Notes under the pieces: generated by a model
Databases searched by the model: none
The model's input: the letters and a program-made list of their open reading frames with translations, nothing else
What the model was told of the DNA's origin: nothing
DNA from: a virus
Reading direction: 5' to 3' (one strand)
Virus record (IMG/VR): IMGVR_UViG_3300025767_000084
Span: 1-30,447 of that record
DNA: 30,447 nt
Shown: one piece after another, positions 4,000 to 23,258 of the stretch
Layout of the letters: every line of letters begins with the position of its first letter
How positions within the stretch are numbered: position 1 is the first letter of the stretch
Program-made: the position numbers and the translations under genes

Positions 4000-4287
4000 A
4001 TGGACTTTTTAGAACTATTCGACGCTTGCGTCCGCGAAACTAAACCTCACTTAGACGACTACACAAAACCGACAACACTAGATATTTCTCTTAAAGAAGA
4101 AGACATCGGGCTAGATAGCTTGGATGTGACCCTCACTCTAGTGCTTATATCTGACATATACGGTATTCCAGAAACAGAAGACTTCAATATACCTGTAGGC
4201 TCTCTACGTGAGGTACGGGATTATATGTTGGAGAACAAAAACAAAGACTTTGACTCCGTAGAAGCTGCTATGGAGACTGTTACATGA
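4000..4287 (+). CDS. Acyl carrier protein
   Basis: A 95-residue acidic protein with the acyl carrier signature EEDIGLDSLD. S40 is the expected 4'-phosphopantetheine attachment site, followed by the helix VTLTLVLISDIYGIPETED that matches helix II and its exit loop in type II ACPs. A final helix (SLREVRDYMLEN) corresponds to helix IV. The serine and its Asp/Leu neighbours are intact, so it could be modified by a host phosphopantetheinyl transferase; none is encoded here. The length is slightly above the typical 75-85 residues because of a C-terminal extension. Its TGA overlaps the ATG of a beta-ketoacyl synthase by 4 bases (ATGA), which argues that the two proteins work together. It lies between tail and ejection genes, an unusual place for a metabolic gene. 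Confidence 0.88.
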   Translation: MDFLELFDACVRETKPHLDDYTKPTTLDISLKEEDIGLDSLDVTLTLVLISDIYGIPETEDFNIPVGSLREVRDYMLENKNKDFDSVEAAMETVT

Positions 4288-5396
4288 TCTATATGACACA
4301 TTGTGAAACACTGTGTACTACGGAAAGAACTACCTACGAAGACATAGCGTTTCCGCAGAGCGTACACATTGTAAAAGATACTTTTAGACGTGCTAAATCA
4401 GGACTATTCTACCCCCCGCACAAAGCGTTTGACAAAGTTATCCTGCAGAAAACAATAGATTATGTCGTAGATAACCCAGTCAAAGGTAAGACAGCCTTCC
4501 TGTTTGCTGCCGGTAGTCAGGGCTGGATGGGTACGAGTGGGCGGTACGACCGAAATACAGAAGCCGAGTTACACTACAAGACCAAGATACCGTTCCTTAC
4601 GCTCACCAATATCTACGCGGGGCGTATCGCTAGTATATTCCATGTACATGACCATGTATCTACGGACGCTAGCGCCTGCGCTTCTAGCCTAAAAGTGCTT
4701 ATGGATATGCAGAACCTGTTTTGGCACTACGGGTTTGATAGAGTTATTGTCTTGGCGGGCGAGGATTCTGTGTGCATACCTTCACTAGAGTTTTTTGGGG
4801 ACGCTAAAGCTAGTATACAGTTATCAGAAGAACCTGATCGCAAACCATCCGCGTTTGATGGCGTCAACACAGGATTCCACGTTGGGCAGGGGGCAGCACT
4901 TGCGGTGTTCGAGAAAGAACATGCGGGTATGTCAGAGCCTATGGCTAAGTTTTTAGGCGCGTATACATCTGCGGAGAACAACACAAACCCTCTTGGGCAA
5001 CGCCCTGATGGTGAAGGATACTCTAAAGCTATCGACGGTTCCTTACATGTATCAGGGGTACGCAAGGAAAATGTTAATGTGGTAAAGACGCATGGGACTG
5101 GCACCGATGCTAACAATAAAGCAGAGAAAGCCGCGCTATTGCGTAGCCTTGATACGTTTGTAGCTACATCATATAAACCCCGTATAGGACATACGTTAAG
5201 TGCTAGTGGGTTATTGGAGACAGGGCTGTTGCTAAATGACATGAAACGCGGTATTGTACCACAAATCCTCAATAGGACTGAAGACGATGACGTGTTCCTG
5301 TCCTACGATGCGCCAGCCCCACGAGGGCCGTTCCTTAGTCTAGCCGCTGGCATGGGTAATATATACTCTGCGGCAATTTTTTCTACGGAGGTGTAG
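4284..5396 (+). CDS. Beta-ketoacyl-ACP synthase-like condensing enzyme (KAS/FabF-type)
   Basis: A 370-residue thiolase-fold condensing enzyme. The full catalytic triad is present: C132 in TDASACASSL, H270 in KTHGTGTD and H303 in YKPRIGHTLSASG, with K298 preceding the second His as in KAS II and polyketide synthases. GFHVGQGAALAVFE (about 197-210) matches the conserved GExA-type segment, and RGIVPQILN (about 322-330) the G-x-x-P-x-x-N stretch. The normal reaction is Claisen condensation of acyl and malonyl groups held on ACP. It is about 40 residues shorter than FabF (about 410), mainly at the N-terminus, and the C-terminal glycine loop reads AAGMGN instead of GFGG. It is coupled to the ACP gene by a 4-base overlap, and the next gene starts 2 bases after its stop. 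The product is unknown: it may extend, initiate or transfer acyl chains. Confidence 0.85.
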   Translation: MIYMTHCETLCTTERTTYEDIAFPQSVHIVKDTFRRAKSGLFYPPHKAFDKVILQKTIDYVVDNPVKGKTAFLFAAGSQGWMGTSGRYDRNTEAELHYKTKIPFLTLTNIYAGRIASIFHVHDHVSTDASACASSLKVLMDMQNLFWHYGFDRVIVLAGEDSVCIPSLEFFGDAKASIQLSEEPDRKPSAFDGVNTGFHVGQGAALAVFEKEHAGMSEPMAKFLGAYTSAENNTNPLGQRPDGEGYSKAIDGSLHVSGVRKENVNVVKTHGTGTDANNKAEKAALLRSLDTFVATSYKPRIGHTLSASGLLETGLLLNDMKRGIVPQILNRTEDDDVFLSYDAPAPRGPFLSLAAGMGNIYSAAIFSTEV

Positions 5397-5866: not shown

Positions 5867-8800
5867 ATGGCAGTCGTAGTCAAAGCCGTTAAAAACGTTG
5901 TTGATTTCGCTGGAGATGTTCTTGGTGGCGCGGCGGATATTGTTGGCGATGTAGTCGGCGGTGCCGTTGACCTTGTCGAGGACGTTGTTGGCGGTGCTGT
6001 TGATATTGTTGAAGACGTAGTTGGCGCTGTCGGGGACGCTGTTGAATGGGCTGTAGACGAAGTAATCGAACCCGTTGTTGAAGGTGTTGGCGATTTAATC
6101 GAAGCCGTTGTAGATGATCCTATCACTACTATAGCCAAGGTCGCCGCAGTAGCCACGGGGAACACATGGGCTATCCCACTTATCGACGGTGCGTCTACTT
6201 TAGCTAAAGGTGGAGATATTGATGACGCTCTTAAATCCGCTGCGGTATCATATGTAGGTGGTAAAGTTGGCGACGTTGTAGGTACCAATATCAATCCCAC
6301 AATCGCAGAAGTCGCAACGAACGCAGGTGTTAGCGATGCGGTAACTACGGTGGTACAAACGGCTGTTGCTGGGGGAACGGAAGCCGCGGCTACTGCTATT
6401 ATATACGGGCAAAACCCGCTTGACGCTTTCTTAGAAGGTGGTCTTAACTCTGCTGTGGGCGCTACTATCGGTCAAATTTCCGATAAGCTAGATAGTAAAT
6501 TCGGTGACGACGTTGAAACAGTTACCGACAAGGTGACGGATACAGTAACAGATGCAGTGAGCGATATTGCCGCCCCAATCACATCTGGGTGGGAGAACCT
6601 GCAAGACGGATTAAAAGATATTGTCGTTGCAGGTGTGACCGCTGAACTTACTGGAGGTGAAATATCTGCTGCGCAAGTAGGTAGCATTGTAGGTAAGTAT
6701 ACAGGCGTTACAGAGTTTGTATCAGACTTTATAAGTGAAAATACTGGCATAGACGATGCTGGAGTTAAGGTTCTTACCTCTGCGGTAACTAATGCTGCGA
6801 CTACGGCCATAGCAGGCGGCTCTACCGCTGATGCTTTTTTTGGTACGTTGGACGCCGCAGGCGCAGCCGCCCTGACAGAGGTAGTAGACAAGCCTGTAAA
6901 CAGTTTCATTGACAAGGTGTCTGGCACTAGCGCAGCGGTAGAAGAGGCAGCGGCGGCACTTAGAGAAGTAGAAACAAAAGCTACTGAAGCAACAAACGGG
7001 TTTAACGGACTACGCGCAGATTTAAATGGTCGTGTTCAAGAGCAAGATCGCCTAAAGGGCGTGTATAACACTGCACTAGACGCACACAACGCGAATCCTA
7101 CACAAGCCACGTTTGACGCGCTCAACTCCGCAGCTACCGAATTTAATACATATGCAGATGATCTTGATTCGTATTACGCGGAAATTAAACCGCAAATGGA
7201 TCAATACGAAGCAGACCACAGCACATATGTATCGCAGCTTGGGGGCTTACAAGCTACATACGACGAAAATACACAGTACCTTATGTCTGACATGGCTGAC
7301 CTCGAGGAGGCCATGAAACCAATCTACGCTGAAACTAACAGGGTTGTAGCCACTACTCTACGGCCCGGGATTGATGAGGACACATATCGTAGGCTTAACG
7401 GGCTAGATGCAAGTGAAGATGTATACACACACTACTTGAACAACAGTAGTAGGGCGCAGGTCTTTGACCCTGCGGACCTAAACCAAGCCAATCCAGATGC
7501 GTACGGTGAAGGGTACACTTACGACCCTGAAACAAACATGTATTACGTAGAAACTCCTGATGGTAAACAACAAGTTGACCCGTACGCAGAGTACGGCGCA
7601 GGGGCTACGTCATACGATGCTCCGACCATGGAGTCGTTACGTAACAGAATGCCCGCGGTACAGGTCATAGATCGAATAACCGCGGATATGGCAAATATCT
7701 TAGGAGAGTCTGGACCCAAGGGCGGTGTAATATTACCAGAACACTTTAAAGCGTTAAAAGATGCTGGGTATAACCTTGTACCTTACAAAGACGGGGTTAC
7801 GGGCAAAATAATAGACGGCACTGTAGATTACGCCGACGTACTACAAGAATTTAAAGAATATACAAAGCGCGTTGAAGACGAAGACACGGTGATGTCCGGT
7901 ACTGTGTATGACCCAGAGTACGGTGTTCTGTCTCAACCTGTGCAATATACGGGCAACACAATTACGTTTGATGGCACCACACCTGTAACACAAGAGATAC
8001 AGGATGTGCTTGTAGATTCGGGTGAATACACGGTGGAGGAAGTACAACAGTATTTCCCAGTAGGTAGTATGTTCGACCTTCAAGGTGGTGTGCCTAGCCC
8101 TGATCTTGTTGATGCGTTCTATTCAGCAGAATATGCGCCGCCTGACTACGACACTATGATGAAAATTGCCGCCGCGCGGGTGCAAGGAGACGGTACAGAG
8201 TTCGACGGGTGGAAAAATTTAGCTAGTCTTCCGGTTAGCGCAGTGGCAGAAATAAGTAGCGCAGTGTCTGGCCTCTCAGTTATTGCAGGAGCAAACCCTG
8301 ACAATATGGTTGGAAGGTTTGCAGAACGCGCGGGCAAACTTGCGGGTGATTTAAAATCGGATGAGTGGAAGGCCGCAGCGGAAGATATGCGAGCTAATTC
8401 TGCAAACTACGATGCCGAGTGGCGTGCTGCTAACCCGGGCCAAGAACCCACTACGGCGCAAAAAGCGTACCTAAAAACAAAGGCTGTATTTGGCAACATC
8501 TATGACCACCCCGTGCAGTGGATCGCAGAAAACGTAGTTACTGAATTAATACAAGAAATACCAATCCTACTTGCATCAGGTGGTACGGGTAACATAGCTA
8601 AAAAAGCTCTTTTAGAGGCGGGTGAAGCTCATGCTAGAAAAGTTGCCTCTCGTGTAGCTATAGGCACGGGGGTTGTTCTTGATGGTGCAGAAGCCTTTGG
8701 GGGTACCGCCGCGGGTGCTTTTGACGAAGCCTACGCCACATACCAAAAGATGTACCCTGATGCCTCTGAAGAAGATGCCACGACTTATGCGTTAGATGTA

Positions 8801-11800
8801 GCCCAGAAGGCGGGTAGTGTGGCGCTGATAACTATGCTGGCTACGGCAGGGATTGGTGGTCAGGCGTTAAACAAATCTATTTTTGGTGACAAAGGTGGGA
8901 GTGAGTTCTTCACCGAAGCCTATGACACGCTTGGAAGAAAAATAGTAGAGGGCGGAAAAGTTGTTGTCAAAGAGGGGGCGACCGAAACCGTAGAAGAAGG
9001 ACTACCAGCATACTACACAGGTACTGTACTGAGTCAGATTGATCCTTCGTATGACGTAGCAGGGAACGTCACGGAAGCCGCTATAATGGGTAAACTCGCA
9101 GGGGCAGGTACCGCGGCAGGGTTGTATACAGGTAATGCCCTTGTAGATGCTGTGATAGCTGTAAACCCTGAAGTTAGAAAAGTATTAGTAGACGGTAAGT
9201 TAAACAACGTAAGCGTAGCTGACACTAAAGAGGCTTTGAGCAGTCTTGGGTTTACTACCGATACTGAAGTTAACGCGCTCTTAAATGTCGCGCATGATAC
9301 TGATTTCACTACCGAACAAGAAGTAGCAGACTATATAAAACTTAGTAATCCAGAGTTTGCATTTACGGGTGATAACGCTACCGCCGCATATGATAAATTT
9401 GCAGGGGTTAAGTCTGATGCAAACCTAGCCGCCGAAGTAGCTGCATATATAGACCCACTCTTTACAACACGAGAAGAAGCGGCAGCGGCAGCGGCAGCAG
9501 AGGGTGTAACGCTAACAGACGACCAAATTGACGCCATAGTTGGTGACGGCAACGTAACAGAAGAAGATATTGCAGAAGTAATAGACGAAAACACTGTTAA
9601 TGCGGAAGAAGTGCAGGAGGTGCTTGACGGCCTTGGTTACGAAGCAACCGAAGAAGAGATTAACGATCTAGTCGGCACAGACGTGGACCTTTCAGAAGAA
9701 GCTCAAATAGATATTATTAAAGAGTATGTAGATGATCGGCAGGTTACTGAGGAAGAAGCTCGTGAGTTCTTTGAAGAACAAGGTTACGAACCCACTGATG
9801 AAGAAGTAGAAGCACGTGTAGGTCAAGGTGGCGAGGGTTTTGAAAATCAAGTAGCTACAAACGTAGGAGAGTATGTAGACCCCCGTCAAACAACTGAAGA
9901 AGAAGCACGACAGTTCTTCGCTGATCTTGATTATATACCCTCAGATGAAGAAGTCGCAGCCCGTGTAGGTCAAGTCGCAGAAACGGACGTAAAAGAAGCC
10001 ATTGATGCGTATGTAGACCCTCGCTACACAACCGAAGAAGAAATACGCCAGTTCTTTGCAGATCAAGGGTTCGTACCCGATGACCGGATAGTTGAAAGGC
10101 TTGTAGGCCAAGGCGGTAAAAATGCCGAGCAAATGAAGGAAATGCTTGTCGCAGGGTACGTAGACCCACGACAGGTTACCGAAGCAGAAGCTCGACAGTT
10201 CTTTGCAAATCAAGGCTACGAACCAACCGATGAAGAGGTAGCCGCCCGTGTAGGTCAGAGTCTTGAAGAAACCTTTGAGGCTGATACAGAGGCTGGTGTA
10301 GAACCATACGTAAACCCACGACAGGTTACCGAAGCAGAAGCTCGTAAATACTTTGAAGATCAAGGGTATACGCCCACTGATGAAGAGGTAGCTGCACGTG
10401 TAGGTCAGGGTGAAGGTACCTTTGAAACTGATACAAAAACAGATGTCGATTTGTATGTAGACCCAAGACAGGTAACTGACGAAGAAGCGCGCCAGTTCTT
10501 TGCAGACCTCGGATACAACGACCCAACAGACGAACAAGTTGCGCAATTTGTTGCGCAAGTCGAGGAGACCACACAGCAAGATGCTATCTCTAAATACGTC
10601 GATCCACGGCAAGTAACACAGGCCGAAGTACAGGCGATTGCTGACGAAGAGGGTTTGACACTCACAGAAGCTCTTGCTGCTACATATATCGGACAAAGCG
10701 AAGCTGAGAACTTCCAAACAGAACAACTGGCTACCGCTCGCGCAGAATACGACCCGTTAGCTACCACGCTAGAAGAAGCCACACAGTTCTTCGCTGATAC
10801 AGGCTACACCGCAGATACAGACGAGATAGCACAGTTTGTAGCGTCTAAAACTGAGGAAGTTCAGACTAGCGCCATCGGTGCGTATGTAGACCCACGGCAA
10901 ATGACCTCTGACGAGGCTAGAGAGTTCCTGAGTGCTATTGGGTATAACCCGACAGACCAAGAGGTTGCTGACTTTACAGGACAACTAAACGACGAGAACT
11001 ACCAAGTTACGCAGAAGACCGCTATTGACGAGTACGTAGACCCACGGTTCTTTGACGCAGGTGAGGTTCGTGCAGCTTACGAGGAACTAGGTCTTGTAGA
11101 TGTAACGCAGGAGGATGTTGATCGTTTTGTAGGGCAGATTGGCTCCGACTACGAGGGTGATGCTGAAGGCTTTGAAAACGCCCGAATGGATGAGCTGCGC
11201 ACTTACATGCCCACGGCTACGTTCAACGTCATTAAAAGTATCATGGGTTCTCCAGCAGTAGCGGATGATCCCAACACTGAAGCAGATGAATCAAAAGACG
11301 CCACAGGTATATACGCCGAACTAGAGGCAGGTGCCACACGCGACGAAGCCCTACAAGCTGCCGTAGACAAACTAGCTACCGATCTAGGTACTACGAAGGA
11401 CGACCTGCTAGACGAAATTGGCCTATCTGAAGATCGCTTACGTGAAGAGATCGGCGCAGTAATTGACGACGTAACGGGTGTAAAAGAAGACGTAGCTGGA
11501 GTAAAAGAAGACGTTGCGGGCGTAACCGAAGATGTAGGTGATCTAGCAGATATTTTAGGTACGGCAGGTGTAGAGGATGATCCAGATACCGAAGCCAACG
11601 AAAGCCAAGACCCTACTGGGTTGTTTGCAACCATTAAAGCATACGAAGACGCAGGGTTAGATAGAGACCAAGCCTTGCAGAAAGCCATTGACGATGTAGC
11701 AGGCGCACTTGGCACTACCAAAGATGACTTACTGGACGCCATTGGGGAGACAGAAACGTCTCTATCAGGTAAAATAGATACGGCCACAGACGCACTTACC

Positions 11801-12670
11801 GAAACCATAGGTGACGTTGAAACGCGGCTTACAAAGCTAATAAAAGACAACGAAGATGCAGGGTTAGCTCGTGATGAGGCCACACAGAAAGCTGTATCCG
11901 ATCTAGCTACCGAGCTTGGCACGACAAAAACTGATCTACTAACCGCTATCGGGAACACTGAGACAGACATCCTAAATGAGCTCGGTCTTACAGAAACTCG
12001 CCTCTCAGGTGACATCTCTGACGTAGAAACCAGTCTCGGTGCAGATATAGACGCTGTAGCAGACCTTATTGGTAAACCTGCACGCGATGTTACACAGACA
12101 GACATTGATTTCGTAATCGACTTAATTGCGCAAGAAAATGTCAGCGCAGAGTTAACGGCGCAGTATGATGTCAATGCAGATGGTATCGTTGACATAGCTG
12201 ACCAAACACTGCTAGAAACAGCCTTACAGGGTGACCAAGACGTAACCCTTGCGGACACATCCATGTTTACCCCGGCTACGGGGCTTTACCTGCAGCAAGA
12301 ACAAGACACGCAGGCTACACAGGATTTGATGACCGAGCTAAACACTCAACTTAATACGCAAATAAATACGCAAGACCAACAACAAAAGTTACGAGACCTA
12401 GTGCAGATGGAAGAGTTAGGGGCATTTAAAGGCGCTAAAACAACAGTGTCGTCGGCTGACCCTATGAACATTGACTACTTATATGACTTCAGTAGTGTCT
12501 TCGCTAACCCGTCTCAAGAAGGTTTGTTTGCTAGCCCTTATAGCACAACGACACGAAACAAAGCGGCTAATCAGCCTATGGGGCCAATGTCCTCGGCAAG
12601 CGGGTTCGCAGAGGGTGGACAGGTAGAGGATGAAAATGATATGCTACTAAGAATACTTGGAGAAATGTGA
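5867..12670 (+). CDS. Giant repeat-bearing virion/ejection protein, 2,267 aa
   Basis: Residues 1-90 are Val/Ala/Gly/Asp-rich with four perfect-length 11-residue repeats (16-59), probably an amphipathic or glycine-zipper helix. Residues about 90-300 continue as Ala/Gly-rich helices, and about 330-480 are coiled-coil-like. Residues 1194-1779 hold about twelve YVDPRQVTEEEARQFF-type repeats of 45-50 residues. Residues about 1800-2050 hold three copies of a GTTKDDLL-containing helical repeat. Residues 2101-2112 form a dockerin/EF-hand calcium loop (D, N, D, G, D, D at 1, 3, 5, 6, 9, 12). The C-terminus has FAEGGQVEDENDMLL, a tail shared with other large virion proteins here. No enzyme motif was seen. 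Position and architecture suggest an internal virion or DNA-ejection protein. No good ribosome-binding site precedes the ATG, so coupling to the gene one base upstream is likely. Confidence 0.75.
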   Translation: MAVVVKAVKNVVDFAGDVLGGAADIVGDVVGGAVDLVEDVVGGAVDIVEDVVGAVGDAVEWAVDEVIEPVVEGVGDLIEAVVDDPITTIAKVAAVATGNTWAIPLIDGASTLAKGGDIDDALKSAAVSYVGGKVGDVVGTNINPTIAEVATNAGVSDAVTTVVQTAVAGGTEAAATAIIYGQNPLDAFLEGGLNSAVGATIGQISDKLDSKFGDDVETVTDKVTDTVTDAVSDIAAPITSGWENLQDGLKDIVVAGVTAELTGGEISAAQVGSIVGKYTGVTEFVSDFISENTGIDDAGVKVLTSAVTNAATTAIAGGSTADAFFGTLDAAGAAALTEVVDKPVNSFIDKVSGTSAAVEEAAAALREVETKATEATNGFNGLRADLNGRVQEQDRLKGVYNTALDAHNANPTQATFDALNSAATEFNTYADDLDSYYAEIKPQMDQYEADHSTYVSQLGGLQATYDENTQYLMSDMADLEEAMKPIYAETNRVVATTLRPGIDEDTYRRLNGLDASEDVYTHYLNNSSRAQVFDPADLNQANPDAYGEGYTYDPETNMYYVETPDGKQQVDPYAEYGAGATSYDAPTMESLRNRMPAVQVIDRITADMANILGESGPKGGVILPEHFKALKDAGYNLVPYKDGVTGKIIDGTVDYADVLQEFKEYTKRVEDEDTVMSGTVYDPEYGVLSQPVQYTGNTITFDGTTPVTQEIQDVLVDSGEYTVEEVQQYFPVGSMFDLQGGVPSPDLVDAFYSAEYAPPDYDTMMKIAAARVQGDGTEFDGWKNLASLPVSAVAEISSAVSGLSVIAGANPDNMVGRFAERAGKLAGDLKSDEWKAAAEDMRANSANYDAEWRAANPGQEPTTAQKAYLKTKAVFGNIYDHPVQWIAENVVTELIQEIPILLASGGTGNIAKKALLEAGEAHARKVASRVAIGTGVVLDGAEAFGGTAAGAFDEAYATYQKMYPDASEEDATTYALDVAQKAGSVALITMLATAGIGGQALNKSIFGDKGGSEFFTEAYDTLGRKIVEGGKVVVKEGATETVEEGLPAYYTGTVLSQIDPSYDVAGNVTEAAIMGKLAGAGTAAGLYTGNALVDAVIAVNPEVRKVLVDGKLNNVSVADTKEALSSLGFTTDTEVNALLNVAHDTDFTTEQEVADYIKLSNPEFAFTGDNATAAYDKFAGVKSDANLAAEVAAYIDPLFTTREEAAAAAAAEGVTLTDDQIDAIVGDGNVTEEDIAEVIDENTVNAEEVQEVLDGLGYEATEEEINDLVGTDVDLSEEAQIDIIKEYVDDRQVTEEEAREFFEEQGYEPTDEEVEARVGQGGEGFENQVATNVGEYVDPRQTTEEEARQFFADLDYIPSDEEVAARVGQVAETDVKEAIDAYVDPRYTTEEEIRQFFADQGFVPDDRIVERLVGQGGKNAEQMKEMLVAGYVDPRQVTEAEARQFFANQGYEPTDEEVAARVGQSLEETFEADTEAGVEPYVNPRQVTEAEARKYFEDQGYTPTDEEVAARVGQGEGTFETDTKTDVDLYVDPRQVTDEEARQFFADLGYNDPTDEQVAQFVAQVEETTQQDAISKYVDPRQVTQAEVQAIADEEGLTLTEALAATYIGQSEAENFQTEQLATARAEYDPLATTLEEATQFFADTGYTADTDEIAQFVASKTEEVQTSAIGAYVDPRQMTSDEAREFLSAIGYNPTDQEVADFTGQLNDENYQVTQKTAIDEYVDPRFFDAGEVRAAYEELGLVDVTQEDVDRFVGQIGSDYEGDAEGFENARMDELRTYMPTATFNVIKSIMGSPAVADDPNTEADESKDATGIYAELEAGATRDEALQAAVDKLATDLGTTKDDLLDEIGLSEDRLREEIGAVIDDVTGVKEDVAGVKEDVAGVTEDVGDLADILGTAGVEDDPDTEANESQDPTGLFATIKAYEDAGLDRDQALQKAIDDVAGALGTTKDDLLDAIGETETSLSGKIDTATDALTETIGDVETRLTKLIKDNEDAGLARDEATQKAVSDLATELGTTKTDLLTAIGNTETDILNELGLTETRLSGDISDVETSLGADIDAVADLIGKPARDVTQTDIDFVIDLIAQENVSAELTAQYDVNADGIVDIADQTLLETALQGDQDVTLADTSMFTPATGLYLQQEQDTQATQDLMTELNTQLNTQINTQDQQQKLRDLVQMEELGAFKGAKTTVSSADPMNIDYLYDFSSVFANPSQEGLFASPYSTTTRNKAANQPMGPMSSASGFAEGGQVEDENDMLLRILGEM
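5912..6043 (+). repeat. Four tandem 33-bp units (11-residue hendecads)
   Basis: The units encode GDVLGGAADIV, GDVVGGAVDLV, EDVVGGAVDIV and EDVVGAVGDAV with no gaps. Spacing is exactly 33 bases, and DNA differences are mostly at third positions. An 11-residue period is typical of right-handed coiled coils and of amphipathic membrane-active helices. Confidence 0.85.
9446..11203 (+). repeat. Array of about 12 imperfect 45-50-residue repeats
   Basis: Consensus blocks: YVDPRQVTEEEARQFF, then about four residues, then GYxPTDEEVAARVGQ, then a variable 10-16-residue linker. The third to eighth and eleventh units match best. The first two, ninth, tenth and twelfth are degenerate. At the DNA level, 31 bases starting at 10164 recur unchanged at 10314 (exactly 50 codons apart), a sign of recent duplication or gene conversion between neighbouring units. 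Confidence 0.85.
11262..12010 (+). repeat. Three copies of a coiled-coil module with GTTKDDLL motif
   Basis: Unit 1 starts at DDPNTEADESKDATG, unit 2 at DDPDTEANESQDPTG, and unit 3 lacks that start but keeps DEATQKAVSDLATELGTTK. Each carries LGTTKxDLLxxIG followed by heptad-like segments (for example VKEDVAGVKEDVAGVTEDV). The units are of unequal length because the coiled-coil tails differ. Confidence 0.75.
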
Positions 12671-16517: not shown

Positions 16518-19500
16518 ATGGCACTTTATGAATTAACCGACCAAACTGGCAATAAAGTACAGGTAGAGGGTCCGTCTGGGGCGACCAAAGAACAGATTGT
16601 TCAAATCTACAACAACACTATGGCCGAGCAAGAACGTGCGCCAGAGCGTAAGTTACGCGCAGGGTTAGAGAAATACTACGGCACGCAGCAGGAATTAGCA
16701 GGTAACATCGCACGTAGTAGAAGACCTACGTTTGGCGACTACTTGGGTGAGGTTCCTAAAGGTCTTATTGGTGGCGCTGCAGGTATGGTGGAAACGGGTG
16801 CCTTGGGCCTCGCAGCTTTACTACCCGAAGGCGCAGAAGACGTTGTACGAGATGGCATCAAGGCTGTTGGCGGCGCGGTGCAAGACTACGTAGTCCCAGA
16901 CTTCAACTTAGAAGAAAGCATACCACGCAAAGTCAGTGAAGCCACAGGTTCGTTTGCCGGACTTGCAGCTACCACCATGATAAACCCTATAGCAGGTGTG
17001 GGGCTAGCAGTATCAGCAGGTGCAGGTGAAGCAAGTGAACGTGCCAGAGCCGAAGGCGCTTCTGTAGAAGATCGTAACCTGTCAGCGTTGTTGGGTATAA
17101 TCCCCGGTGCGCTAGAACTCTTACCCATCAAGTTCTTGTCTGTTATAAACAAAGCACAGAAACAAAAGATTACCGATGCACTTGCACGGATTGTGGAACA
17201 AGGCGGCATCGAAGCAGGGCAGGAAGCAGTGTCCTCCGTAGCGCAGAACCTAATTGCCCGTGAAGTTTACAAACCGGAACAAAGTCTAGTCGAAGGTACA
17301 GGAGAAGAAGCTGCGCTTGGCGGTACAGTTGGTGCCATCATCCAAGGCACGTTAGAACTTGTCACACCTAGAACCCGAGGCGGTACAGCAGACGGCGCAC
17401 TTGCAACAGATGCGGGGCCGCAGGGCGAGTTGTTCCCCGGCGAAGATTTGGGACAAGCACCACAACGACAAGAAGCAACCCCTGAACAAGGTGAATTGTT
17501 TCCTGACGAAGATTTAGGGCAAGCCCCAGAGGGACCAGACCCACGCCAAGGAGATTTATTTAGTCAGCCTGAAGAGACGCTTGCACGCCGCGCTAAAGAA
17601 CTAGAACGAGAAAAAGAAACGGTAATGCGCCGTCCTATGGGTGAGGCGATTGCTGAGTTTGAAGCAAAAGACGACAAGTTTTTTGAAAGGAATAAACGTG
17701 AAAGAGACGCGGCTCGTAGAGGAATAGCGTCATTAGAAGCAGCTCGACAACGCCCTGCCGCAGATACACGAGATATGCGAGATATGGTAACGGAGGCTCA
17801 AGATCAGGTTGCCGACGAACAGGCCAGAGAGCGTGAGGGTATACGCGCTGCACAACGGGATGACGTGGCCGCGTTTGAACAACCTGATTTATTTGCGCAA
17901 GAGGTAGAACGCGAACGCCGCCGTCTGGGACCAGAAGAACTTAGAGACCCCGAACAGTATATGGACGCAACCCTGTTTGAAGAAGCGGAAGCACCTGAGT
18001 TTGTAAGGCCCGCCGCAGAACGTGATCTTGTAGACATGATAGGCGAAGACGTTACCGCTACCGCCAGCGCCGCTGTGCGCAAAGGTAGAGCGGGTGCAAC
18101 AGAGCAAGACCTAGAAAATCGTCAAGCATTAGCAGCTCGTGCAAAAGCCGAGTCAGCCGCGGAAACAGCGCAAGGTAAACTAGACGCAGACCGAGCGGCG
18201 CAAACAGAAGCCACGCGTACTAAAGTGTTACAAGACACAGTAGCCAACGCAGGGGAAGTTCGTAGACCCGAAGCATTGCGTAACCTTTACGAGACGGCGC
18301 TAACAAATGCAGGTCTTGCAAACGCCAAGGCGACACCGCAAGAAATGGAAAGCCTGCGCCGTGCGTCTGATGTGATACGCGCAAAAGACCCTACGGTAGA
18401 AGCTATAGCCGCGCGTGAGGAGGCAAAAGACCCTGAACAACTAGCAATGGAGGCTAGAGTAGCACCCAAGGGTATTACACCGTTAAGAGCGAGTGTTGCT
18501 GTCCCTGAAGTTGCGGGGGAACCGTTAACAGCGCCCGAAAGGAAAGCTAATGTTAGTGCTAAAAGACCTGACCCAACAAGAAGTAGAATTAGCCCTGCGG
18601 GTGATCGACCAAGCAGTGCAGACGGAGGAGATGGGGCCGTTCGTCGTACCGGAGAGCCTACAACACCTGACGACAATGGAATGGGATCAGCTTTGCCTCG
18701 TGATGGAATCACTGGTGACGGAACAAAGTCAAGCAGTGATCCACTAGGGACTGTCACTCCTACACCTCGGAAAGTTAACCAGCCGACGGCGCAGGCCAAG
18801 GTAGAGTCTAAGTCAAAACCTGTTACACAGAAGACAGAACCTGCAGGCAATCGCAACGAGACTAACAGTGCCAGCAGACGTTCCGCTTTAGGTGGCAAAA
18901 CAATTCCGGCAGATGCCAAACGTGGCCCTATACCAGCGGGTATTAAAGGCGTTGCGCGTCCTAAAAAGGCAGAACCAGAAGCGAGACAAGTAGCACGTCT
19001 GTACGAAGAAGAAACACCTGCGGTGGTCAAGGAAGCATTTGGGGGCAAGCAAGAGGTTCCAACAACCAACCCGTTTAGCAACGCAGACAACAAGAAGATT
19101 AAAGACAAGATACTAGCTGGGTTTAGCAAAAGCGACAAAAGTAAGAAAGAAGTCGCGCCTGTTGTTGCGTATCTACGTGCGTACCCTAACCCGTTCGATG
19201 GGTTGAGCATGGCGTTGTTTGACCAGATAAACGGCACCCCGATGGCCACCAACGAAAGCACAAACGACAGCACAGCACGAGCAGCGGTAGAAGCTCGCCA
19301 GTTTATGGGCGGTATTCCAGCTACAAAAGGACAAGTGTCACCTGCAAACAGAGCTATCGCGTGGGCGCGGGTCAACTTGAGCAAAGAAGCCAACGAGAAA
19401 TTAGATCGACGCGCTAAAGAGATACAACTAAACCAAGTCCGTGCTGTCGTGTTTGAAGGCGGTCCTGATCGTGTCATGTCCGCACGTGATAAGAAGCTAC

Positions 19501-22500
19501 TACAAGATCGCAAGAGCTTGGAAGCCGCTATAGTCGGTGGCTACGCTGACCCCAAAGAGTTGGTCAAAGATTTTCCTGATGTGTATCCAAACATTGATGC
19601 AGTACGCGAGGCTATGGAAGACCCCGCGTTTGGCCGCATGGCGCTCGACTTAGGTGCGGTAGTCGGGCTAGACCTGCCGCTGCACCCCACTGTAGAAGAC
19701 GCAGTTAAAAAAGGTGACTTGGGCGATGTGCTATCCAATATCGCACTTACAAATCCCGTGCGCCAAGTTCGGCAAACAGCAAATGCTTTCCTGAAAGTAG
19801 TAGGCGACACAAAAGTTATTGTGAAGAAGAACCTCAAAGCCGAGGATGGTCGCCCCGTTGCAGGGTTGTTTGATCCAAAGACCAACACGATTTCGCTTGA
19901 CGCGGATGCTGGTATCAACACGCACACGATACTCCATGAGATGTCCCACGCAGGGATGTCGGCAGCATTGGCTGACCCTAAAAACGGGTTTGCCATACAG
20001 ATGAAAAAGCTATTCAAAGACTTGGATGGCTACCTTGGCAGTGCATACGGCGCACAAAACGTAGACGAGTTCTTGTCTGAGGCGCAGAGCAATCCAAGGT
20101 TCCGTTCTGATTTAGCCAGCATAAACATGAAGGGCGAAGAAGTTACCGCGCTGCAGCGGTTCTTTAACATAGCCAACAACTTCCTGAGTAAGTTCCTACC
20201 GTTTGTGAAGTCTCGTAATATAACTGCCTTGCAAGAAGTAGACGCACTTGTAGATGGGTTACTGGCACCTGCACCGAAATACCGCAACGCTAATCAGATG
20301 GCGATGATGTCCACTGTCGAGGGTGTCAAGAAGTTCACGAAGGACACCGTGCAAGCTACGAAAAAGTCGATAGACGCGGAAAGTCGCCAACAATTTAAAT
20401 ATGGTGCCCGTGACTTCTTATCGGAAGGGTTCTCGAAGAAGTCTAAAAACCTCTTGTTGAAACTTACAGGTTTGCAAGGGCTTGGGGACATAGCAGAATC
20501 AGTCGGATTGGGCAGAATGGGTCACGATCTGGATGAGTTGGTATCCAACCAACGTGGTGAAATTCAAACTGCCAACAAAATGATTGAAGATAAGATTGGC
20601 AAAATATTAACCAAGCTAAACAAAGGTACACCCGAAGCTGCGCAAAAGCGTACGGAAGCTCTAAACCGTTTGATCTACGACAACGACTACGGCGCTACTA
20701 TCTATCAGGTAGACCCAACAAAACCACAGGGTACGTATATCAACAAAGACGGTAGCCCTCGCATGGACAATGATGGTAACGACCTGTTGGAAGTGTGGAA
20801 GAAACAACGCGCTGACTGGAACGCATTGGGGCCAGACGGGCAAGCTGTCTACAACGAGATGCGAGCAGTGTACAAAGATCAGTACGAAAAGCTCAAAGCT
20901 GTTGTTCTTAAACAGATTGACGAGTTGGTACAGAACCCCGATGACGCGGCTAAACTAAAAAGAGACATCTTTGCCAAGCTGTTCGACTCTAGCACCTTAG
21001 ATGTTTACTTCCCGCTGATGCGTGATGGTGACTACGTGCTACGTTACGAGGTTAAAAACCCTAAGTCTTCACGAGAAGCCAGTGTAGTGCAGACATTCAC
21101 CACTGCCGCAGAACGTGATGACGCCGCAAAAATGTACAAGGCAAACAAAGACTACAAGAATGTAGAGTTTGTTGAAGAGATAACCGCGAACACTTTTAAA
21201 GGTACGGGTACTGACCCGAGCTTCGCGTACGATACACTCAGCATCTTGGACAAAAACAAAGTGCCACAAGATGTGAAAGATCAGGTGCTCAAGTTGTTCA
21301 TCAACTCTTTGCCCGAGACATCGTTTGCTAGGTCATTGCAGAAACGTAAGGGAACACCGGGGTACATGCAGGACTCCGTGTATGCTCTCAAGACAAAGGG
21401 CTACACTCTTGCAAGCCAAACGGCCAAACTTAAATACGGTGCGCTTTTACGCCAGTATGAAAAAGACTTGGACGCCTTTGAGCGCCTTGAGGTGCCAGCG
21501 GCTAAAAGTATTGTCGGCAAAGGAGCTGAACGACTCACCGCCGCGTTTGGAGATGTAAAAGCTGAATTAAAAGATCGCGCACGGTTCGCACGGGTGGGCG
21601 CTAAAAATGGTGATGTAGAAGCTATTGCACGTAGGCTTAATCAAACTGCGTTTATCTACACTATCGGCTTCAACGCGTCCTCTGCGCTGGTTAACTTATC
21701 GCAAATACCTCTGCTTGTAGCGCCGTTCTTAGGAGGCAAACACGGGTATACAAAAACGTATAAAGCCATCAAAGCTGCCTACGGCAACACACTGCTGGGC
21801 GGTAAACGCGGTGGTGGAACGAACTCTATCTTGGACTTTTACGATATATCCGACAAAGGTAACTTCACCTTGAAGAGAGGGCTGAAGCTCCCTGAAGGCA
21901 AAGAAGCCGAGCTGCGCAACATGGAAGCCTTGGTGCAGACTGCAGCAAAACGGGGTCTGTTGGGTCAAGGATTCCTAGCGGAAGCTATGGGTCTAAACGA
22001 AAGCAGCCGCATCAAAAAGGGTAGTAAAGTCGGTAACGCTTTGGATAACGCGTCCGTTCTGTCTGCTTGGCTATTCAACCACGCGGAACAACTTAACCGT
22101 CAGGTGACGCTGATGGCATCGTTCAACCTAGCGTTAGATAGCGTGACAAAGGGTAAACCAAACAGCGCCAGCGCAGCGCAAATCGAAGAAGCCGTGCAAC
22201 AGGCCATCTACGACACACAGCAAACAAACGGTGGTACGTTCCTAGAGACCGCGCCTAGCATAGCGCGAGAAGGTGTTGGCCGCGTTGCGTTTATGTACAA
22301 AAACTACGGTTTGCAGATGTACTACACCATGTTGAAGACCGCCAAGATCGCCATGGACAGTGACAAGGGTGCGTTGTTTGGTAAAGAAGGATCACCCGAA
22401 CGTAAGGCCGCGGTGAAACAACTTATCGGTATGCACGGATCAGCGTTGTTCTTCGCAGGTGTCCAAGGTCTGCCGCTATACGGCGCAGTCAAACTAATCG

Positions 22501-23258
22501 CTAACCTGTTCTTCTTGGATGACGAGGAAGAAGATTTTGATACACTCGTGCGTCAGTACATGGGTGAAGGTTGGTACAAAGGCGCTGTAACTGAACTCGC
22601 GGGTATAGACGTTGCAAGTCGTATGGCGCTCACAGGATTGTTGATCCAAGAAAACAGGTTTAACAATGATCCGTCCCTAGAAGAAACTATAGGGTTCTAC
22701 GTAGGTGGGCCTGCACTCAGCGTAGCTAACCGCCTGTATCGTGGTGGTTCTGACCTGTTCTCTTCAGAGGGAGATACGCAACGCGGCATTGAAAATATCA
22801 TGCCAGCGGGTCTGGCAAACGCATACAAATCTACCTTCGGCAGGTACGCGCAGGAGGGTGGTATATACACGCGGCGTAACGACCCCATCTACGATGACAT
22901 GACTGGCGGTGAGTTGATTGCTCAAGCTCTGGGCTTCCCACCAACAGAGTATACGTTCCGTCAAGAACAGAATAGCGTCACCAAACGTATCGACATCGCG
23001 GTTGGGCAACGGCGCTCCGCTCTACATAAGAAGCTATACATAGCGCAGCGCATGGGTGACTTTGATGCTGAGATGGAAATCTACGACGAGATTGACAAAT
23101 TTAACGCTCGTCACCCTGAAGCAGAGATCAACGCTAAATCCATAGAGCGTTCATTGAAGCAACACGCCAAAACTTCTTCAGAGATGTATAACGGGGTAAC
23201 TCTAAGCCCCTTGTATCGTGATGCTCTGGAAATGATCCGAGACTCCTACAAGCAATAA
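16518..23258 (+). CDS. Giant polyvalent/ejection protein with HExxH metallopeptidase motif, 2,246 aa
   Basis: The N-terminus (MALYELTDQTGNKVQVEGPSG) is the small beta domain that often opens phage ejection proteins. Gly/Ala-rich segments (about 75-160) could be membrane-active. Residues 300-460 are charged, with four QGELF/QGDLF/QPDLF motifs. About 665-800 is disordered. A zincin-like domain lies near 1040-1260, with HEMSH at 1140-1144 and candidate third ligands E1184 or E1188. The last 600 residues (IGFNASSALVNLSQIPLLV, YKNYGLQMYYTML, a hydrophobic LFFAGVQGLPLYGAVKLI segment) match the pattern of large polyvalent-protein-associated domains found in phage proteins injected with DNA. It would be packaged and delivered into the host, where the peptidase could act on the cell wall or host proteins. 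The start is supported by AAGGG upstream. A separate reading frame overlaps residues 678-743. Confidence 0.75.
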   Translation: MALYELTDQTGNKVQVEGPSGATKEQIVQIYNNTMAEQERAPERKLRAGLEKYYGTQQELAGNIARSRRPTFGDYLGEVPKGLIGGAAGMVETGALGLAALLPEGAEDVVRDGIKAVGGAVQDYVVPDFNLEESIPRKVSEATGSFAGLAATTMINPIAGVGLAVSAGAGEASERARAEGASVEDRNLSALLGIIPGALELLPIKFLSVINKAQKQKITDALARIVEQGGIEAGQEAVSSVAQNLIAREVYKPEQSLVEGTGEEAALGGTVGAIIQGTLELVTPRTRGGTADGALATDAGPQGELFPGEDLGQAPQRQEATPEQGELFPDEDLGQAPEGPDPRQGDLFSQPEETLARRAKELEREKETVMRRPMGEAIAEFEAKDDKFFERNKRERDAARRGIASLEAARQRPAADTRDMRDMVTEAQDQVADEQAREREGIRAAQRDDVAAFEQPDLFAQEVERERRRLGPEELRDPEQYMDATLFEEAEAPEFVRPAAERDLVDMIGEDVTATASAAVRKGRAGATEQDLENRQALAARAKAESAAETAQGKLDADRAAQTEATRTKVLQDTVANAGEVRRPEALRNLYETALTNAGLANAKATPQEMESLRRASDVIRAKDPTVEAIAAREEAKDPEQLAMEARVAPKGITPLRASVAVPEVAGEPLTAPERKANVSAKRPDPTRSRISPAGDRPSSADGGDGAVRRTGEPTTPDDNGMGSALPRDGITGDGTKSSSDPLGTVTPTPRKVNQPTAQAKVESKSKPVTQKTEPAGNRNETNSASRRSALGGKTIPADAKRGPIPAGIKGVARPKKAEPEARQVARLYEEETPAVVKEAFGGKQEVPTTNPFSNADNKKIKDKILAGFSKSDKSKKEVAPVVAYLRAYPNPFDGLSMALFDQINGTPMATNESTNDSTARAAVEARQFMGGIPATKGQVSPANRAIAWARVNLSKEANEKLDRRAKEIQLNQVRAVVFEGGPDRVMSARDKKLLQDRKSLEAAIVGGYADPKELVKDFPDVYPNIDAVREAMEDPAFGRMALDLGAVVGLDLPLHPTVEDAVKKGDLGDVLSNIALTNPVRQVRQTANAFLKVVGDTKVIVKKNLKAEDGRPVAGLFDPKTNTISLDADAGINTHTILHEMSHAGMSAALADPKNGFAIQMKKLFKDLDGYLGSAYGAQNVDEFLSEAQSNPRFRSDLASINMKGEEVTALQRFFNIANNFLSKFLPFVKSRNITALQEVDALVDGLLAPAPKYRNANQMAMMSTVEGVKKFTKDTVQATKKSIDAESRQQFKYGARDFLSEGFSKKSKNLLLKLTGLQGLGDIAESVGLGRMGHDLDELVSNQRGEIQTANKMIEDKIGKILTKLNKGTPEAAQKRTEALNRLIYDNDYGATIYQVDPTKPQGTYINKDGSPRMDNDGNDLLEVWKKQRADWNALGPDGQAVYNEMRAVYKDQYEKLKAVVLKQIDELVQNPDDAAKLKRDIFAKLFDSSTLDVYFPLMRDGDYVLRYEVKNPKSSREASVVQTFTTAAERDDAAKMYKANKDYKNVEFVEEITANTFKGTGTDPSFAYDTLSILDKNKVPQDVKDQVLKLFINSLPETSFARSLQKRKGTPGYMQDSVYALKTKGYTLASQTAKLKYGALLRQYEKDLDAFERLEVPAAKSIVGKGAERLTAAFGDVKAELKDRARFARVGAKNGDVEAIARRLNQTAFIYTIGFNASSALVNLSQIPLLVAPFLGGKHGYTKTYKAIKAAYGNTLLGGKRGGGTNSILDFYDISDKGNFTLKRGLKLPEGKEAELRNMEALVQTAAKRGLLGQGFLAEAMGLNESSRIKKGSKVGNALDNASVLSAWLFNHAEQLNRQVTLMASFNLALDSVTKGKPNSASAAQIEEAVQQAIYDTQQTNGGTFLETAPSIAREGVGRVAFMYKNYGLQMYYTMLKTAKIAMDSDKGALFGKEGSPERKAAVKQLIGMHGSALFFAGVQGLPLYGAVKLIANLFFLDDEEEDFDTLVRQYMGEGWYKGAVTELAGIDVASRMALTGLLIQENRFNNDPSLEETIGFYVGGPALSVANRLYRGGSDLFSSEGDTQRGIENIMPAGLANAYKSTFGRYAQEGGIYTRRNDPIYDDMTGGELIAQALGFPPTEYTFRQEQNSVTKRIDIAVGQRRSALHKKLYIAQRMGDFDAEMEIYDEIDKFNARHPEAEINAKSIERSLKQHAKTSSEMYNGVTLSPLYRDALEMIRDSYKQ
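17421..17561 (+). repeat. QGELF/QGDLF motif repeats in the giant ejection protein
   Basis: QGELFPGEDLGQAP (residue 302) and QGELFPDEDLGQAP (324) form a 66-base tandem repeat, followed by QGDLF (344). A fourth, QPDLF, is at residue 455 (position 17880). Q-x-[DS]-L-F is the usual bacterial sliding-clamp-binding pentapeptide, so clamp binding is one possible reading. A simple linker repeat is the other. Confidence 0.6.
18550..18747 (+). CDS. Overprinted small gene nested inside the ejection gene, 65 aa
   Basis: This frame lies in the +1 frame relative to the surrounding 2,246-residue gene. AAAGGA at 18538-18543 is 6 bases before the ATG, a near-ideal ribosome-binding site. The product reads like a normal helical protein: LTQQEVELALRVIDQAVQTE, then PFVVPESLQHL, then TTMEWDQLCLVMESLV and a short tail, with Leu/Val/Ile at helix-like spacing. 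In the same stretch the host frame is only Pro/Ser/Gly/Asp/Arg-rich filler (for example RPDPTRSRISPAGDRPSSAD), as expected when the second frame is the one under selection. Function not recognised; a small adaptor or regulator is possible. It is not excluded that the frame is an accident of composition. Confidence 0.6.
   Translation: MLVLKDLTQQEVELALRVIDQAVQTEEMGPFVVPESLQHLTTMEWDQLCLVMESLVTEQSQAVIH

Follow-up and report, generated by a model that had tools for sequence, protein, structure and literature searches.

The gene Rz1 of phage lambda, which lies within Rz, typifies the embedded spanin genes, and in Serratia phage Parlo an o-spanin gene is annotated within the i-spanin gene. Gene E of phiX174 lies inside gene D, and it has been reviewed together with other overprinted viral genes (PMC8227390). 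In Pseudomonas phage Fc02 the overlapping ORFs olg1/olg2 have a measured role in superinfection exclusion (PMC9936078). Phage polyvalent proteins are very large products that carry LPD domains and zincin-like metallopeptidases, the latter being their commonest domain (Iyer et al. 2017, PMC5512222).

The window analysed here, 30,447 nucleotides of IMG/VR virus record IMGVR_UViG_3300025767_000084, contains a 65-codon frame within the gene of such a giant protein. To judge from its conservation, this frame is very probably a genuine protein-coding gene, nested in the giant gene and translated by internal initiation. The type of feature is already known; none of the libraries searched here contains the protein family.

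The giant ORF (16518–23258, plus strand) specifies a 2,246-residue protein which profile matches place with the polyvalent or ejection-type proteins. Residues 1850–2228 match a DarB-like family [3e-47, PHROG 10089], residues 1378–1472 (20649–20933) an LPD39 domain [7.7e-8, above the curated cut-off], and there is a weak match to the internal virion protein 9sfn_G [E 0.008]. The sequence HEMSH at residues 1140–1144 (19935–19949) is an HExxH motif. Great length together with HExxH and LPD39 fits the architecture set out for polyvalent proteins, with the zincin assignment coming from the motif alone. In the parts of PMC5512222 covered here we found no second-frame gene described; the word "overlapping" is absent and the passage with "nested" refers to a protein fold. 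HExxH was found in nearly all outer genes long enough to show it, a frequency not independent of selection as the motif itself helped to recognise outer ORFs, and it stands 254 to 793 codons downstream of the nested stop.

Two further genes on the plus strand deserve mention. One (4284–5396), part of the plus-strand block to which the giant ORFs belong, encodes a 370-residue protein with beta-ketoacyl synthase domains [PF02801, 8e-17; PF00109, 3e-7] that also matches PHROG 35856, of function not known. The other (5867–12670) is a second giant ORF, of 2,267 residues, with weak PHROG matches only.

The nested coding sequence runs from ATG at 18550 to TAG at 18745–18747 on the plus strand, in the +1 frame relative to the giant ORF and wholly within it. 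Its product, MLVLKDLTQQEVELALRVIDQAVQTEEMGPFVVPESLQHLTTMEWDQLCLVMESLVTEQSQAVIH, has 65 residues, a mass of 7.4 kDa and a pI of 4.1. The Shine-Dalgarno sequence AAAGGA (18538–18543) lies 6 nt upstream of the ATG, and the C-terminal His codon and stop occupy 18742–18747. The outer protein over the same bases (about residues 678–743; 18549–18747) is polar filler, SAKRPDPTRSRISPAGDRPSSADGGDGAVRRTGEPTTPDDNGMGSALPRDGITGDGTKSSSDPLG, which evolves fast and contains no stop. A first-pass annotation, made from the sequence of the window, had described a 65-codon frame with a near-ideal AAAGGA site, and both are as it placed them. Its picture of low-complexity filler between structured parts holds for the filler, which sits in a longer, poorly conserved linker with no two sharp domains around it. 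Its name for the giant product, ejection protein, is probably apt: judging from its family, the protein is likely to be packaged and injected with the DNA.

A small-protein search of viral contigs returned close relatives with 79–95% identity and others with 32–44%, and a wider nested alignment gave 28 loci; every match checked lies inside a long ORF and in the +1 frame of that ORF. A search with the outer gene in place of the nested query, which makes the set of relatives less dependent on the nested frame, showed that 66 distinct outer genes carry the nested gene; its frame is +1 each time, and in all 66 it is complete and wholly contained. The homologs reach down to about 26–30% identity, on contigs of 39–63% GC. 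All seven long contigs with a match carry exactly one copy, always at the same site. The position of the gene drifts from about outer codon 288 to 893 among relatives; it lies near codon 288 in L079, L080, L093 and L098 and as far as 893 elsewhere, through relocation or growth of the linker.

The nested alignments found no free-standing homolog in viral contigs, each accepted match that was checked lying in a giant ORF, and GTDB genome contigs gave none either. The first-pass annotation had proposed comparing the product with phage proteomes, and this comparison divided: the viral contigs hold homologs, whereas cultured phages gave none. Searches (tblastn) of cultured phages with four family members returned nothing or chance-level matches, and no nested match was detected in the cultured relatives of the outer gene (Parlo, Skulduggery, LASTA, douglas 12A4 and others). 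Three matches of the outer gene in genome collections (MAG contigs L131–L133) had no significant nested match and offer no reliable host. Profile searches of Pfam, PHROGs, NCBIfam and PDB with the nested protein gave weak, scattered matches only; among these PDB 6nyr [E 4e-4] was set aside, since the match spans 15 residues. A literature search in which subscription journals were mostly outside coverage found no description of the family.

The nested gene has, as a sequence signal, its own means of initiation. Shine-Dalgarno matches of at least 4 nt precede 55 of 57 nested ATGs and 17% of 4,341 other ATGs of the same regions; the first figure is biased upward because starts were picked partly by Shine-Dalgarno score, a bias too small to explain the contrast. 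In a GC-rich relative (L010 9965, 63%) there is no close ATG, and the gene probably begins with TTG behind GGAGG. All 66 homologous frames terminate at a stop, 65 of them directly after a C-terminal His. The conserved start signals are most simply explained by internal initiation: ribosomes would start at the Shine-Dalgarno sequence and ATG on the mRNA of the giant gene, and translate the nested frame independently of the giant protein. One might instead assume that ribosomes translating the giant gene undergo a programmed +1 frameshift and make a shortened giant protein that ends in a new C-terminus, for the nested frame is always +1 and is open for a few codons ahead of its ATG. This is very unlikely, as an in-frame stop stands only 7 codons upstream of the ATG in the window, and the Shine-Dalgarno sequence and start codon are conserved.

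Coding sequence normally varies most at third codon positions. Among 25 pairs of relatives, pooled, the changes at outer first, second and third positions were 0.30, 0.18 and 0.11 inside the overlap and 0.16, 0.12 and 0.32 outside it (chi-square 481, 2 d.f.); thus inside the overlap substitutions gather at the outer first position, which is the nested third, and shun the outer third. Because sites are not independent, a pairwise tally is safer than the pooled chi-square: the phase was reversed inside the overlap in 23 of the 25 pairs, as against none of 25 outside. The two unreversed pairs had equal counts inside the overlap, one of them with zero differences. When the giant gene of the window was scanned against seven relatives, only those of the 202 overlapping scan windows that touch the nested gene were reversed, and outer third-position change, which averages 0.40 over the whole gene, dropped to 0.06 in the overlap. 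The claim that the nested frame constrains the outer one is borne out by this loss of third-position change, confined as it is to the overlap, and the depression of outer synonymous change for which the first-pass annotation had suggested looking is present. Its companion test, stops in related phages, was passed as well: no stop interrupts the nested frame of close relatives. As a qualification, the small gene is missing from several distant lineages.

The outer frame is maintained as well. There is no outer-frame stop in any of 65 overlaps. The outer codon under the nested terminal His has the form xCN, always specifying Thr, Ala, Ser or Pro, and its fourfold-degenerate third base, which lies under the second base of the nested His codon, is A in 65 of 65. 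With synonymous codons drawn at random according to outer-gene usage, and lineages treated as independent, the joint probability that the outer frame would be open by chance given the nested proteins is ~10^-60 over 33 divergent lineages, and the reverse calculation, for the nested frame given the outer proteins, yields ~10^-49. Since the giant frame is also kept open, both products are selected. The locus thus combines selection on the nested protein, depressed outer synonymous change and a maintained outer frame, as in overprinted genes.

A cis-acting element in RNA or DNA could also reduce synonymous change, as could the 408-codon antisense ORF (18287–19513) which covers the site, with no nested gene involved. 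We regard this as highly improbable: the constraint has the periodicity of nested codons, with nested third positions the most variable; it spans the nested frame alone, whereas the antisense ORF continues to 19513; and the nested protein can be aligned across deeply diverged lineages at 26–45% identity.

The length of the frame was dropped as evidence for a gene, being not significant in the window alone. When the synonymous codons of the outer gene were shuffled, 36% of trials left the nested stretch open, and 58% produced an ATG frame of at least 65 codons somewhere in the giant gene. Because the length is within chance (P ~0.36), conservation is the deciding evidence, and codon-phase reversal together with the 66 distinct outer genes raises the nested frame far above chance. 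That the frame is open merely by chance, owing to the codons that a low-complexity linker happens to use, as its unremarkable length in the window would allow, can be dismissed, since the phase reversal is confined to the nested frame, 66 homologs share one relative frame, and Shine-Dalgarno sequence, stop and terminal His are all conserved.

In the outer-gene tree, for which four cultured phages supplied the root, every member of the deepest clade has the nested gene, and lineages lacking it are dispersed over the tree. This pattern fits one origin and about five losses, with the root and several long branches uncertain; the count of losses leaves out a fragment (L020) whose frame starts 23 codons before HExxH, short of the nested site. 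With about five lineages doing without it, the gene is dispensable in some backgrounds. Two long contigs lacking it (68 and 58 kb) have no copy elsewhere in the contig. Complete giant genes without the nested frame (L096/L097, L111, L113, L115, L126/L128 and L129/L130) form a natural loss set for comparison of the outer linker.

Two AlphaFold models, one built from 29 sequences and the other from 62, both show a two-helix hairpin, with helices at about residues 9–24 and 42–62 (pLDDT 78, pTM 0.59); fold searches of PDB and BFVD with the model returned no significant match. Family members have a median of 66 residues and a median net charge of -5, and as the charge ranges from -14 to +2 acidity is not universal. 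No membrane segment was found in the family (top 19-residue hydropathy 1.25, below 1.6), and a hydrophobic signal-like N-terminus is absent from the nested proteins listed. An embedded spanin of the Rz1 type was considered and rejected, the family having neither signal peptide or lipobox nor transmembrane segment.

The product would be a soluble, usually acidic helical hairpin made from the giant protein's own transcript. Such a protein might act late, as a soluble partner or chaperone to the giant polyvalent protein with its HExxH motif, keeping the latter foldable, unaggregated or unprocessed until packaging, a role that we suggest tentatively. The fixed host gene, the presumed shared transcript and the composition seem to fit a partner; the losses and the drifting position in the linker do not. 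Drift from about codon 288 to 893 argues against a fixed co-translational geometry, and lineages without the nested gene retain the HExxH motif, which also counts against a partner. The coding overlap would hold the two genes together, and the flexibility of the outer protein, a linker at that site, would make the overlap tolerable.

About as likely, and itself somewhat short of an even chance, is an independent late or host-directed protein which shares the transcript only, acting in anti-defence, takeover or superinfection exclusion or as a virion component. Such jobs are common among small phage proteins, an overlapping ORF of phage Fc02 has exclusion activity (PMC9936078), and repeated losses suit an accessory function. 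For a mobile accessory gene it would be unusual that deep lineages keep the same site and that no free-standing copy was found.

The presence of HExxH in the outer genes and of a C-terminal His in 65 of 66 nested proteins also brings to mind an inhibitor or regulator of the putative zincin-type module, with the invariant His as metal ligand. This we consider improbable, because HExxH persists in lineages that lack the small gene, and zincin activity is itself putative, read from the motif. The fuller version, in which an ancient, previously undescribed nested gene is a dedicated regulator whose terminal His holds the HExxH protease-like module inactive until delivery, is if anything the less probable; if true, a protein and its control subunit would be encoded by the same bases.

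Compared with the systems described at the outset, the locus resembles Rz/Rz1 in that a small gene lies fully inside another in an alternative frame, has a ribosome site to itself and is conserved over deep divergence. It differs in that the host gene encodes a giant polyvalent protein and the nested product is soluble, with no membrane segment. With olg1/olg2 of Fc02 (PMC9936078), likened by description and without sequence comparison, it shares a small phage ORF in an alternate frame, whereas their setting is beside a repressor gene. With phiX174 E/D and the overprinted viral genes reviewed in PMC8227390 it shares an internal overlap in an alternative frame, where disorder in one partner eases conflict. 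Here, by contrast, the phages have double-stranded DNA, constraint is stronger on the nested frame than on the outer one, and long contigs of about 58–68 kb make genome compaction a weak motive for overlap. The family occurs in most sampled members of a widespread uncultured phage group and yet is absent from the libraries searched, so that a conserved protein is overlooked where fully contained frames are discarded. It is a small candidate for learning about the production and storage of giant injected proteins, and the kept and lost overlaps offer a natural series in which to study tolerance of a long-lived overlap. Few nested genes of double-stranded DNA phages match it in comparative depth.
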